DNA from: Anaerolineae bacterium
GTDB lineage: Bacteria > Chloroflexota > Anaerolineae > 4572-78 > J111
Length of the DNA stretch: 61,727 nt
Direction of reading: 5' to 3'
Assembly (NCBI GenBank): GCA_016931895.1
Contig: JAFGDY010000099.1
Coordinates: 1 to 61,727 of the forward strand
The notes under the pieces are model-generated. The model did no database searches. It saw only the letters and a list, made by a program, of their open reading frames with translations, and had not been told where the DNA came from. Positions within the stretch are counted from its first letter, which is position 1; each line of letters begins with the position of its first letter. This document shows, piece after piece, positions 2,079 to 7,396 of this stretch. The position numbers and the translations under genes were made by a program.

Positions 2079-2107
2079 TTGACAAAATGAGTGGCTTATA
2101 TTATATT
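2079..2107 (+). promoter_or_regulatory. Strong sigma-70-type promoter of the TetR gene
   Basis: TTGACA (2079-2084), a 17-base spacer and TATATT (2102-2107). Transcription would start at about 2114, on the operator. This decides the TetR start: the GTG at 2091 lies inside the promoter, so the TTG at 2160 is the likely initiation codon. Confidence 0.7.
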
Positions 2108-2113
2108 CCCCAC

Positions 2114-2135
2114 ACATACCAATCGTTCAGTATGT
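2114..2135. promoter_or_regulatory. TetR operator 1 (autoregulation)
   Basis: Inverted repeat ACATAC-N10-GTATGT with a central TCGTTCAGTA, immediately downstream of the -10 box. It matches the site at 2785-2806 in 18 of 22 positions. TetR-family proteins usually bind such 15-22 bp palindromes next to their own promoter; binding here is inferred. Confidence 0.65.
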
Positions 2136-2159
2136 AATTTTTTCAATAGAGTTGTTCCC

Positions 2160-2768
2160 TTGACTAAAACCCAAAAACAAATTCAAAGCGAACAAACCCA
2201 ACAAAAGATCATCGAAGCCGCCACCCAGCTTTTTGTGCGCAAAGGCTTCTATGGCACTTCGATATCCGATCTGGCCCAGGCCACCAGCTTGACCAAGGGC
2301 GCGCTCTACCATCATTTTGAAAACAAAAACGCCATCTTTTTTGCCGTCATCCAAACCGTGCGTAACACCTGGCACAATGAAGTAGCCCGCGATGTCTTAA
2401 AAGCCAAAACCGCCCCCTCTCGACTGACGGCCCTATTGGACAACCATGCCCGCCTGCACAAAAATAACGAAACCATCTGTCTTGTTCTGAATGGTTTGAT
2501 GATGGAAATGGAGGGCATGAACCCTGAATTTATGCTGGCCTTGCAAGAAATTTATAATGAACTGGCTCAGTTTATTGAACATATTATCCAAAAAGGGCAG
2601 CAAGCGGGGGAAATAAAACCTGATTTGGATTCCCGCCTGGTCTCGCTCAACATTGTAGGGATATTGAGAGCCATCGGCTGTTCCGGGATATTCAACCACA
2701 TGGATGTGGAATATGAAGCAATGACGGAAACATTGAAGCAAATGCTTTTGGACGGTCTGCGACCGTAG
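2160..2768 (+). CDS. TetR/AcrR family transcriptional regulator
   Basis: About 202 residues from the TTG start. The N-terminal helix-turn-helix is clear (KIIEAATQLFVRKGFYGTS, then SDLAQA..LTKGALYHHFENK), followed by a helical ligand-binding domain of normal length with no recognisable ligand signature (NGLMMEMEGM region). The start is set downstream of the promoter and operator. It lies upstream of and co-directional with the redox membrane protein, whose promoter carries the same operator, so it is inferred to repress both itself and that gene. The inducer is unknown. Confidence 0.9.
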   Translation: MTKTQKQIQSEQTQQKIIEAATQLFVRKGFYGTSISDLAQATSLTKGALYHHFENKNAIFFAVIQTVRNTWHNEVARDVLKAKTAPSRLTALLDNHARLHKNNETICLVLNGLMMEMEGMNPEFMLALQEIYNELAQFIEHIIQKGQQAGEIKPDLDSRLVSLNIVGILRAIGCSGIFNHMDVEYEAMTETLKQMLLDGLRP

Positions 2769-2781
2769 TTTTTTCGCTTAG

Positions 2782-2810
2782 TTCACATACCGGTCGTTCA
2801 GTACTTATAA
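2782..2810 (+). promoter_or_regulatory. Promoter with TetR operator 2 before the thioredoxin/CcdA gene
   Basis: TTCACA (2782-2787), 17 bases, TTATAA (2805-2810). The operator-like sequence 2785-2806 (ACATACC..TCGTTCAGTA..T) fills the spacer, the classic position for steric repression. Promoter strength is moderate. Confidence 0.55.
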
Positions 2811-2871
2811 GTTTTGGCTGTTCCCAAAATCAAGGAGTCGCTACAAAAAACAGGATAAGGTGAAGCCATAG

Positions 2872-4476
2872 ATGAAATACAGAAACTTTTTAAGCATCGC
2901 CACCTTCATTTGGCTTTTTATCGTCGCCGGGATATTACCTGTCCCGGCAGCGGCGCAATCTTCAGAGGAGCCGGTGGTGCAAGCTGTTCTTTTTTACTCC
3001 AATAACTGCTATCATTGCCATCAGGTAATATCCCAACTCCTGATCCCGATGCAAGATAAATACGGCGAGCAACTTCAGATTTTGGGCCTGGAAACCTCGG
3101 AACCCAGCACAGGAGAACTTTTCCAGGCGGCCATTGCCTATTACCAAATTCCGCCCGAATACCAGGGCGTGCCCTTTTTAATCATCGGCGACACCGTGCT
3201 GGTCGGCAGCCAACAAATTCCCCAACAACTCCCGGCCATCGTCGAAGCGGCCCTGGCAGCCGACGGGATTGGCTGGCCCAATTTTCCCGGTTTCGCCCAA
3301 GTTTTGGCCGCAACTGGGCCTGCCCCGGAACCTTCGCCCTCGCCGCAGCCCACCGACACCCCCACCCCGGCGGCCGTAGTAGCTCTGGCCGGGGCGGTTG
3401 AGCCGGTTTATTTGGCCTATTTTTACGATCCCTCTTGTCTGGAATGTGCCCGCGTCAGCAGGGAATTGGCCGAAATTCAGGCCGGCTACCCCCAGGTAGT
3501 TATCCGCAAATTCAACGTGCAGGAGGAGGCCCCCCTCAACGAAACCATTTGCGACCAATACGATGTGCCCGATGAATATCGCCTGGCTTCGCCCATGATC
3601 TTCATTGGACAAGAATATCTGGGGCCTGGCGAAATCACCCTGGAGCGTTTAAAAAACCTCGTTGAAGCGCCTGCCGCGGCCAAAGCGTCGCCGCCCTGGG
3701 AATCAATCAAAACAAACCAGGCCGAAGTCACCGCCCGAATTACGGAACGGTTCAAACACTTTGGCGTGTTGGCCGTGGCCGGAGCGGGTTTATTGGATGG
3801 CGTCAACCCTTGCGCCTTCACCACCATCATCTTCTTTGTTTCCTACCTGGCCCTGGTGGGGCGCAAAGGGCGCGAAATTTTGCTGGTTGGCGCAGCCTTT
3901 ACCCTGGCCGTATTTCTCACCTACTTGATGATGGGCCTGGGCCTGGCCGAAGTATTGCGCCGGCTCAAGTCGCTAACCCTGATCGGCCAGATCATTTACG
4001 GCGTAACGGCTCTCATCTGCCTGGTTCTGGCCTTTATCAGCATTTCAGATTATCTAAAGATCCGCCGGGGCCAACTGGCCGAGATTTCACTACAATTACC
4101 CAAGGCGCTCAAAAAACGCATCCATGGGACAATTCGCACCCACAGCCGGATGCGGGGCTATATTGGAGCTGCCTTTGTCGCCGGCGTACTGGTCAGCGTG
4201 TTTGAGTTGGCCTGTACGGGGCAAGTGTATTTACCCACCATTATCTTTGTTACCGGCGTGGCCGACCTGCGCGTTACGGCTATTGCTTACCTGGCGCTTT
4301 ACAACCTGATGTTTGTGGTGCCCTTGATGGCCGTTTTTATGATCACCTATCTGGGGACCGGCAGCCGCCAACTCACTACCCTGTTCCAGACTCACGCTGG
4401 CACAGTAAAACTTCTCACGGCGGTTTTATTTGGCGTGCTGGGGGTATGGGTGGGATATATGGTTTTAACGGTTTAA
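2872..4476 (+). CDS. Double thioredoxin-like / CcdA (DsbD-type) transmembrane redox protein
   Basis: A 534-residue protein: signal peptide (1-28, ending PAAAQ), a first thioredoxin-like domain with C46-Y-H-C49, a Pro-rich linker (150-165), a second thioredoxin-like domain with C189-L-E-C192, then a polytopic CcdA/DsbD-like membrane domain from about residue 295 with the conserved NPCAF and ACTGQVYLP motifs. In DsbD/CcdA proteins this pair of membrane cysteines moves electrons from cytoplasmic thioredoxin to outside substrates. Here two external thiol domains are fused to the channel. It likely supplies reductant to exported proteins or cytochrome c maturation; the target is unknown. It is probably controlled by the adjacent TetR. 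Confidence 0.88.
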   Translation: MKYRNFLSIATFIWLFIVAGILPVPAAAQSSEEPVVQAVLFYSNNCYHCHQVISQLLIPMQDKYGEQLQILGLETSEPSTGELFQAAIAYYQIPPEYQGVPFLIIGDTVLVGSQQIPQQLPAIVEAALAADGIGWPNFPGFAQVLAATGPAPEPSPSPQPTDTPTPAAVVALAGAVEPVYLAYFYDPSCLECARVSRELAEIQAGYPQVVIRKFNVQEEAPLNETICDQYDVPDEYRLASPMIFIGQEYLGPGEITLERLKNLVEAPAAAKASPPWESIKTNQAEVTARITERFKHFGVLAVAGAGLLDGVNPCAFTTIIFFVSYLALVGRKGREILLVGAAFTLAVFLTYLMMGLGLAEVLRRLKSLTLIGQIIYGVTALICLVLAFISISDYLKIRRGQLAEISLQLPKALKKRIHGTIRTHSRMRGYIGAAFVAGVLVSVFELACTGQVYLPTIIFVTGVADLRVTAIAYLALYNLMFVVPLMAVFMITYLGTGSRQLTTLFQTHAGTVKLLTAVLFGVLGVWVGYMVLTV

Positions 4477-4683: not shown

Positions 4684-4712
4684 TTGTCAGCCCGAGTTGG
4701 TTGTGTTACAAT
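4684..4712 (+). promoter_or_regulatory. ilvD: Promoter of ilvD
   Basis: TTGTCA (4684-4689), 17-base spacer, TACAAT (4707-4712). The leader is about 65 bases and ends in AAGGAG eight bases before the ATG at 4780. No leader peptide or T-box was recognised. Confidence 0.6.
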
Positions 4713-4779
4713 GTCTCAATTCCCCAGGAGAGGGAATCATTCCAAATTGCTTTTTTCATATCTTTAAGGAGAGTTTGTT

Positions 4780-6444
4780 ATGCGTAGCGACACTGTAAAA
4801 AAAGGATTTGAACGAGCGCCCAACCGCAGCCTGCTCAAGGCCAGCGGTTACACCGACGACGACATTAGAAAGCCCTTCATCGGCATTGCCAACAGTTATA
4901 CCGATGTGGTGCCCGGCCACGTCCACCTGAACGAGTTTGGCGAAATTGTGCGGCAGGCCGTGCGCCAGGCCGGCGGCGCGCCCTTTATGTTCCACACCAT
5001 TGCCGTGGACGACGGGGTGGCCATGGGCCACGCCGGGATGAAGTTTTCGCTGCCCAGCCGGGAGCTGATTGCGGACTCGGTGGAAACCATGGTCTCGGCG
5101 CACTGTTTCGACGCCCTGGTCTGCATCCCCAACTGCGACAAAATCATCCCCGGCATGCTGATGGCGGCTATGCGGCTCAATATCCCTACCATTTTTGTCA
5201 GCGGCGGGCCGATGCGGGCCGGGGTGACGCCGGATGGCAAAACAATAGATTTGATTTCGGTTTTTCAGGGCGTGGGCGCGTACCGGGCCGGAAAAATCTC
5301 TGCAGAAGAACTCAAAATTTTGGAGGATTACGGCTGTCCCGGCTGCGGTTCCTGTTCCGGCCTGTTCACGGCCAACTCCATGAACGCCATCTCGGAGGTG
5401 TTGGGGTTAGCCCTGCCGGGTAACGGCACTTACCTGGCCAAAACGCCGGAACGGGAAGCGCTGGCGCGTCAGGCCGGGGCGCAGATCATGAAGCTGATTG
5501 AGTGGGATTTGAAACCGCGCGACATTGTGACCCAGGACGTGATTGACAACGCCTTTGCCCTGGATATGGCCATGGGCGGCAGCACCAACACCGTGCTGCA
5601 CACCATTGCCATTGCCCACGAAGCCGGGCTGGATTACTCGCTGGAACGGCTCAACGACATTTCGGCCAAAGTGCCCAACCTGTGCAAGGTCAGCCCTTCC
5701 TCTGCGTATCACGTTGAGGATGTTGACGCGGCGGGCGGCATCAGCGCCATTCTGTGGGAGTTGAGCAAAAAGCCCGGCGCGCTCAAACTGGACACCCAAA
5801 CCGTCACCGGCAAAACCCTGGGCGAGAATATTCAGGGCTGCGACAGCAAAAATACGGACTGCATCCGCACCCTGCAAAATCCCTACAGCCAGACCGGCGG
5901 CTTGACCATGCTCTTTGGCAACCTGGCCCCCAACGGCGCGGTGGTCAAAACCGCCGGGGTGCTACCCGAAATGATGAAACACTCCGGCCCGGCCCGCGTG
6001 TACAACTCCCACGACGAGGCCAACGCCGGGATTTTGAGCGGCGACGTGCAGCCGGGCGAAGTGGTGGTCATCCGTTACGAAGGCCCCAAGGGCGGGCCGG
6101 GCATGCAAGAAATGCTGGCCCCCACCAGCAACATCACCGGCATGGGGCTGGAAAGCTGCGTAGCCCTCATCACCGACGGCCGTTTTTCCGGCGGTACGCG
6201 CGGCGCGTGTATTGGCCACATCTCGCCCGAAGCGGCCGAGGGCGGGCCGATTGGCCTGCTGGAAACAGGCGACATCATTGAAATTGACATTACTAAAGGC
6301 ACGTTGAACGTGGCCCTTTCAGATGAGGAACTGGCCAAACGGCGAGTCAATTGGCAGCCGCCCAAGCTGACGCTGACCGGCTGGCTGGCTCGTTATGCTA
6401 AATTAGCCACCAGCGCGGATAAAGGGGCGATTTTGCAATTTTAA
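4780..6444 (+). CDS. ilvD: Dihydroxy-acid dehydratase
   Basis: A 554-residue enzyme of valine/isoleucine (and pantothenate precursor) biosynthesis. It dehydrates 2,3-dihydroxy-3-methylbutanoate or -pentanoate to the 2-oxo acid in the cytoplasm. Iron-sulfur and metal motifs are plain: NCDKIIPGM (C119), [11 protein letters not shown] (C192) and the MGGSTNT and GRFSGGTRG segments. At the position where [2Fe-2S] enzymes carry a third Cys (PCN) this one has PGH, as in the E. coli-type oxygen-sensitive [4Fe-4S] enzyme; cluster type is inferred from that. The start is supported by AAGGAG. It stands alone, with no ilvBCN neighbours in the window. Confidence 0.97.
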
Positions 6445-6935: not shown

Positions 6936-7184
6936 ATGCAAATGTACAAAATCAGGCTTAACCTTGAACTCAATCCCGGAACGGATCAAGTATACACCAT
7001 TACCAGTCCAGATGTGCCGGGGTTGATCACAGAAGGCAGCACACCCGAAGATATACAACGTAATGTTCAGGAAGCATTAGAGGGTCTTATAATGGCCTGG
7101 AAAGAGCTAGGCAAAGAACCACCTCCCGCTTTGCAACCACTTGATGAAACACTCTTTACCTCCGAAGCCCTGGTTATCGCCTGA
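6936..7184 (+). CDS. hicB: HicB-family antitoxin
   Basis: An 82-residue small protein with the HicB partial RNase H-like fold signature: YKIRLNLEL, a TSPDVPGLITEG core and an amphipathic helix (DIQRNVQEALEGLIMAWKE). The C-terminal DNA-binding extension seen in longer HicB proteins is missing, so autoregulation may be weak or use the complex. The stop codon shares its A with the ATG of hicA, indicating translational coupling. The antitoxin gene comes first, the reverse of the classic hicA-hicB order but common in this subfamily. A second ATG two codons in is an equally possible start. Confidence 0.85.
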   Translation: MQMYKIRLNLELNPGTDQVYTITSPDVPGLITEGSTPEDIQRNVQEALEGLIMAWKELGKEPPPALQPLDETLFTSEALVIA

Positions 7185-7396
7185 TGCGCTATCGTGAGTT
7201 GAGTAAACGACTGGAAAAGTTGGGCTGCTATCAACTCCGGACCGCTAAAGGCAGTCATCGTTACTGGTATAACCCTACTACTGATAAAGTAGTCGCTGTG
7301 CCTGATTGGGGCCAAAAAGATCTCAAACCCGGAACCGTTCGTGGTATTTTAAGAAACCTGGGTATCAGTCGCAAAGACTTTGGGCCTATCAAGTAA
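7184..7396 (+). CDS. hicA: HicA-family mRNA interferase toxin
   Basis: A 70-residue dsRBD-like toxin. The catalytic His lies in KGSHRYWYNP, and the family-typical LKPGTVRGILRNLGIS helix ends the protein. HicA proteins cleave mRNA and tmRNA and are neutralised by HicB. The pair is directly followed by a good terminator, so the module is self-contained. All key residues appear present, so the toxin is predicted to be active. Confidence 0.87.
   Translation: MRYRELSKRLEKLGCYQLRTAKGSHRYWYNPTTDKVVAVPDWGQKDLKPGTVRGILRNLGISRKDFGPIK

Follow-up and report, generated by a model that had tools for sequence, protein, structure and literature searches.

The locus studied here raises the question of which genes are controlled by a TetR-family regulator of an Anaerolineae bacterium (GCA_016931895.1, contig JAFGDY010000099.1), through which DNA sites, and whether the neighbouring gene betrays the signal to which the regulator responds. 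The region analysed (2079-2810) lies in a window, by which we mean the whole stretch of 61,727 nt; positions refer to the window unless another locus is named. An initial annotation had proposed that a pair of matching operators links the TetR gene to a gene for a redox membrane protein, that TetR represses both genes, and that it answers to a thiol or oxidant-related ligand.

Two matching sites around the TetR gene

The two 22-bp sites (Table 1) agree in 18 of 22 positions, as had been claimed for them, and none of 3000 dinucleotide shuffles of the two intergenic stretches reached this value (best, 17). The identity alone is weak evidence and was rejected as a measure of significance, since 1295 pairs of 22-mers with at least 18 matches occur in the whole window, a count that takes in overlapping and low-complexity pairs. 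Elsewhere in the window, 22-mers agreed with site A in at most 14 and with site B in at most 15 of the 22 positions. Site A is self-complementary in 16 of its 22 positions and site B, the poorer inverted repeat, in 12.

Searched with a loosely defined palindromic pattern at no more than two mismatches, the 6.06-Mb genome yielded both sites and one place inside groEL; because the reversed control gave an equal total number of hits, only low-mismatch matches were counted. For a pattern fitted to the site pair, 0.01 matches are expected. With a pattern made of six sites (two each from the window and from the orthologous loci L024 and L026 described below) and up to three mismatches, both sites were recovered from their own genome at zero mismatches and five other places at three. 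A wider regulon was rejected, as the reversed control gave 4 and 10 places. Sites A and B are the sole close matches in the genome.

Table 1. Features of the TetR locus, with positions in the window
Feature	Position	Strand	Description
Promoter A of TetR gene	2079..2107	+	TTGACA-N17-TATATT; promoter scan 11/12; sigma-70-like
Operator A	2114..2135	.	Predicted site, ACATACCAATCGTTCAGTATGT; inverted repeat with ATAC-N10-GTAT core; over expected TetR transcription start
TetR-family repressor gene	2160..2768	+	202 aa; TTG start, placed by two-orthologue alignment; PF00440
Weak terminator-like hairpin and T run	2752..2776	+	Over TetR stop codon; z -1.4, not significant
Promoter B	2782..2811	+	TTCACA (2782-2787), N18, TATAAG (2806-2811); 10/12, by eye
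Operator B	2785..2806	.	Predicted site, ACATACCGGTCGTTCAGTACTT; ATAC-N10-GTAC; in promoter B spacer
DsbD/CcdA-like thiol-disulphide membrane protein gene	2872..4476	+	534 aa; signal peptide-like start, two thioredoxin-like domains, membrane domain

The initial annotation had let the first site overlap the start of a TTGACA-N17-TATATT promoter. The promoter was recovered by the scan, whereas site A is clear of both hexamers and begins 6 nt past the -10 box. The other site had been placed in the spacer of the next promoter and does fill it, since promoter B was read by eye as spanning 2782-2811; the promoter scan, which demands a final T, lists no promoter there. The open frame of TetR begins at a GTG (2091) inside promoter A, and in the alignment the TTG at 2160 falls on the start codons of two orthologues, ATG and GTG, which supports the start already proposed at that position.

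Between TetR and the next gene, a strong terminator was considered and rejected, as folding z values were -1.4, -0.6 and 0.0 across the three orthologous loci; the T run is kept in all three, and the hairpin is poor in L024 and L026. Just 5' of promoter A, at 2026-2056, stands a perfect 31-bp hairpin, GGTGACAGTCACTT-N4-AGTGACTGTCACC, with strong folding (z -6.9). It is a dispersed repeat with 29 places in the genome and none in the reversed control, which rules out a regulatory role specific to this locus.

Conservation of the sites with TetR genes

Among 396 genomes of the class, one TetR orthologue was found at E up to 1e-30 (G015, 64%), and among 400 genomes of the phylum none at E up to 1e-32 except that of the window itself. 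Scanning 84,980 species genomes with a pattern recovered the 64% orthologue again (L025), together with a second at 51% (L026); the match that followed stood at 37%. Only three loci, the window included, carry the orthologue, and in L024, which holds the 64% TetR, the downstream gene is cut off. Using a pattern built from the window alone, operators A and B were located at 1453 and 2123 in L024 and at 3969 and 4644 in L026, so that the search for both sites at orthologous loci, which the initial annotation had advised, found them flanking the TetR gene in each. Counterparts of promoter A precede them (TTGACA-N17-TATATT at 1422-1450 in L024; TTGACA-N17-TATCAT at 3930-3958 in L026). The order of promoter and operators is identical in the three loci, with site A lying 2 to 10 nt past the -10 box and site B following the TetR stop codon and preceding an A+T-rich, -10-like stretch; for promoter B, no clear -35 box was seen in L026. 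The aligned TetR starts of the three loci are TTG, GTG and ATG. When 25 genomes of the order were compared, mismatch-free matches appeared solely in the two that carry this TetR gene. The operator pair is real and conserved.

The same sequence accompanies other TetR genes. At up to one mismatch, the six-site pattern matched in 10 of the 396 class genomes, two of which are sources of the pattern; in seven of the remaining eight the site abuts a gene hit by the TetR profile, and the eighth match (L149, 2253 bases) shows no TetR gene. The TetR proteins of these seven genomes share 23-38% identity with that of the window over the aligned stretch. Because the site flanks the orthologous genes and abuts TetR genes in seven of eight further genomes, the pair is best read as a TetR operator, and because of the latter matches the sequence is predicted to serve several TetR proteins of the class as an operator type. 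Outside this class, ATACC-N8-GGTAT with up to one mismatch occurred upstream in 8 and downstream in 6 of 80 TetR loci (L025 and L026 among them), for mononucleotide-shuffle expectations of 0.6 and 0.4, respectively. In a member of the Flavobacteriales (L050) copies of the site flank the TetR gene, which a hydrolase-like gene follows; those of Marinomonas (L052) precede a large transporter-like gene, both as judged by reading the translations, with no family search.

At their start, the seven further TetR genes of the class (L145, L146, L147, L148, L150, L151 and L152) carry palindromes that are almost perfect and belong to the types ACATACCGACCGGTCGGTATAT and ACATACCGAACGTTCGGTATGT. A dehydrogenase/epimerase-like gene, again by reading translations, adjoins TetR in L145, L147 and L148.

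The regulator, its relatives and the exchange of its target

The protein matches the N-terminal helix-turn-helix of TetR regulators (PF00440; E 1.8e-15, 56.8 bits over a cut-off of 24), and its structure model (pLDDT 91) has nine helices in the all-helical two-domain TetR fold, with 3qbm, FadR and many others as fold matches. Like other members of the family, it has an inverted-repeat operator at its own promoter, and this is kept in the orthologues. PDB 3vpr, also a match, is presumably PfmR. The best NCBIfam match is ScbR (NF041196), at 88.8 bits below the cut-off of 150; the Bacillus-type FadR model (NF053878) scored 2.3e-23 and 83 bits under a cut-off of 200, and FadR proteins that bind acyl-CoA are found with the best matches in both sequence and fold. 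The alignment shows two cysteines, C107 and C174, shared by the three orthologues, C174 being aligned in L026 only through a gap, and C107 stands one column before the cysteine common to the GCPLNNL group. As read from these alignments, the two cysteines neither prove nor exclude redox sensing by TetR.

The closest parallel is offered by MbdR of Azoarcus sp. CIB (PDB 4uds), which in pairwise matching resembles TetR in fold (Z 19.0, rmsd 3.4, 185 residues aligned, 20% identity) and in sequence (E 6.4e-12). According to excerpts of its description, the MbdR operator is ATACN10GTAT, matched exactly by five of the six sites and missed by one base in site B of the window, and it lies over the +1 position at one promoter and over the -35/-10 region at another (PMC4424350). 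MbdR represses itself and its targets, as is proposed here for TetR. The pathway under its control degrades 3-methylbenzoate, and its release is brought about by 3-methylbenzoyl-CoA (PMC4424350, in the part available); unlike in that system, no genes for 3-methylbenzoate degradation were seen adjoining TetR. The published site of PfmR (TTHB023), a TetR-family protein of Thermus thermophilus, TACCGACCGNTNGGTN, resembles the operators in the register TACC...GT, although the targets given in the accessible text are fatty-acid genes (PMC7022988). For the ScbR/AvaR autoregulator receptors of Streptomyces, the ARE-like motif AWWCCRBBHDDNMSGTWT fits site A in 16 of 18 positions by manual count. AltR, NemR and DitR, in partial accounts, are TetR repressors of thiol-stress targets that are released through cysteines; the likeness to them is one of description. 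Autorepression via inverted repeats, as proposed for TetR, applies to AltR and NemR, but the AltR box CAATCTAC-N6-GTAGATTG differs from the operators described here. Further sources are PMC13178969, PMC9342713, PMC5744401 and PMC5597230.

The gene behind site B encodes a protein with C46-C49 and C189-C192 in its thioredoxin-like domains and C314 and C448 in its membrane domain, that is, with CxxC motifs and a membrane cysteine pair, all six cysteines being invariant in 17 sequences. Its structure model contains thioredoxin folds, along with a weak thioredoxin Pfam match. This protein itself had no match to DsbD_TM (PF02683) at E 1, and a homologue (L105) reached 21.9 bits, below the cut-off of 27.1. 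The membrane domain was modelled at pTM 0.51 with a thioredoxin-type best Foldseek match (E about 1e-3), and a sequence profile against the PDB found no relative of this domain. The protein probably moves electrons to disulphide bonds and, judging by its sequence, would seem to work in the manner of DsbD/CcdA carriers; we do not file it as a member, because DsbD_TM was not reached and is weak in a homologue.

Matches to this protein are common (87 of 396 class genomes, E up to 1e-40, some covering one domain only). The loci examined from this set comprise L105-L133 (29 loci), that of the window itself, L013 in the same-genus genome G012 and L014 in G001, a genome of another family; the other 55 of the 87 genomes lie outside this reading. 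Across 40 DsbD-like loci (L105-L133 and L013-L023, one of them a paralogue from the same genome), the fetched flanks held neither a TetR gene nor a site at up to two mismatches, and in L129 one match with three mismatches fell inside the DsbD-like gene. The same-genus homologue (43%) is among those lacking both. The G001 locus (G001:C222:1-453) codes for a C-terminal piece that shares 79% identity with the DsbD-like protein; that it is far closer than the homologue of the same genus may point to gene transfer or to an error in binning, and its upstream region is unreadable because the piece sits at a contig end.

In L026, site B is followed by a gene (4690-5424) for a DUF4386 membrane protein of 245 aa (E 1.2e-06, above the cut-off), and therefore the sites go with TetR and not with the DsbD-like gene. 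In L024 only 116 bp of contig remain beyond site B, and from the last readable start codon there is no recognisable DsbD-like protein in a stretch too short to judge. Among the loci seen, no second genome had both the TetR orthologue and the DsbD-like gene. As read from these loci, the TetR gene and its two predicted operators travel as a cassette, the downstream target of which changed between relatives. The literature searches found no work on DUF4386 together with TetR and none treating a system of TetR, operator and DsbD in Chloroflexi, and searches with the DNA strings of related operators gave unrelated matches only.

Elsewhere in the window (6936-7396), two small overlapping ORFs stand at the close of an open frame that has a band-7/SPFH-like start and breaks off. 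By motif, they resemble HicB and HicA.

Repression and the nature of the ligand

From the sites, their exclusivity, their conservation and their association with TetR genes, all observed, we infer binding, repression and induction as follows. A TetR homodimer would bind the two ATAC-N10-GTAT-type operators; at 2114-2135 it would cover the start of its own transcript and so repress itself, and at 2785-2806, between the -35 and -10 boxes, it would block the DsbD-like gene, until a small molecule releases it and both genes switch on together. Such a scheme would follow the standard TetR model, and MbdR does both with the same operator skeleton. We give this reading, including a cassette with a changing target, a probability of roughly 88%, and repression of both genes, which the initial annotation had proposed, is very likely: it is strongly supported by the retention of both sites and promoter A in two diverged orthologues, by the exclusivity in the genome and by the adjacency to TetR genes in seven of eight cases. 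Against it stand the poorer symmetry of site B, which has no scan-grade promoter, and the small number of orthologous loci, three, one with a cut-off downstream gene; TetR may also activate at site B instead of repressing. In a survey of TetR regulators, as far as its accessible part goes, neighbours within less than 200 bp are usually targets and the kind of product matters little (PMC3511530); it applies here only by analogy, because it concerned divergent neighbours. That the sites bind another regulator, or are alike by chance, would fit the abundance of similar 22-mer pairs in the window, yet it is highly improbable given that they are conserved with TetR in two diverged loci, are absent where TetR is absent and lie beside other TetR genes.

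As to the ligand of the proposed repressor, the thiol or oxidant-related compound suggested earlier was derived from the downstream DsbD-like gene alone. This claim is unproven and has been weakened, since L026 keeps both sites before a DUF4386 gene, and since neither a TetR gene nor the site accompanies the other DsbD-like genes that were read, one of them from the same genus. As a tentative alternative, the ligand could be lipophilic or of the acyl-CoA type, like those of FadR and MbdR, with no redox sensing: FadR proteins rank high in sequence and fold, the operator skeleton is shared with MbdR, whose effector is an acyl-CoA (PMC4424350, excerpts), and both known downstream genes encode membrane proteins; the FadR cut-off, however, was missed, and fold matches are common to many TetR proteins with other ligands, the comparison being one of fold and sequence and not of pockets. 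It is rather doubtful that TetR acts as a one-component sensor of thiols or electrophiles, released by oxidation or alkylation of C107 and/or C174, such that disulphide stress induces a DsbD-like reductant pump. The retention of both cysteines, a thiol-disulphide target with six invariant cysteines and the precedent of NemR, AltR and DitR (in partial accounts) would agree with it, but L026 keeps sites and cysteines with a DUF4386 gene behind site B, C174 is aligned there only through a gap, and C107 is one column off the GCPLNNL-group cysteine, NemR, AltR and DitR being likened by description and not by sequence. Less likely still is the fuller version, by which TetR would be a direct thiol-redox sensor (C107/C174) and a one-target switch for a DsbD-like pump with two built-in thioredoxin domains, on only when extracytoplasmic disulphides need reduction, and rewired to the DUF4386 protein in a relative; if true, the DUF4386 family would gain a redox role.

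The regulator and its operator pair are an ordinary case of a familiar type of switch, one that supplies an uncharacterised TetR protein with a firm operator and a clean regulon of two sites. The regulator and both operators are kept while the target gene changes, which is a warning that the ligand of a TetR protein should not be guessed from one neighbouring gene. The conserved operator also constitutes a handle on DUF4386, a membrane protein family of unknown function.
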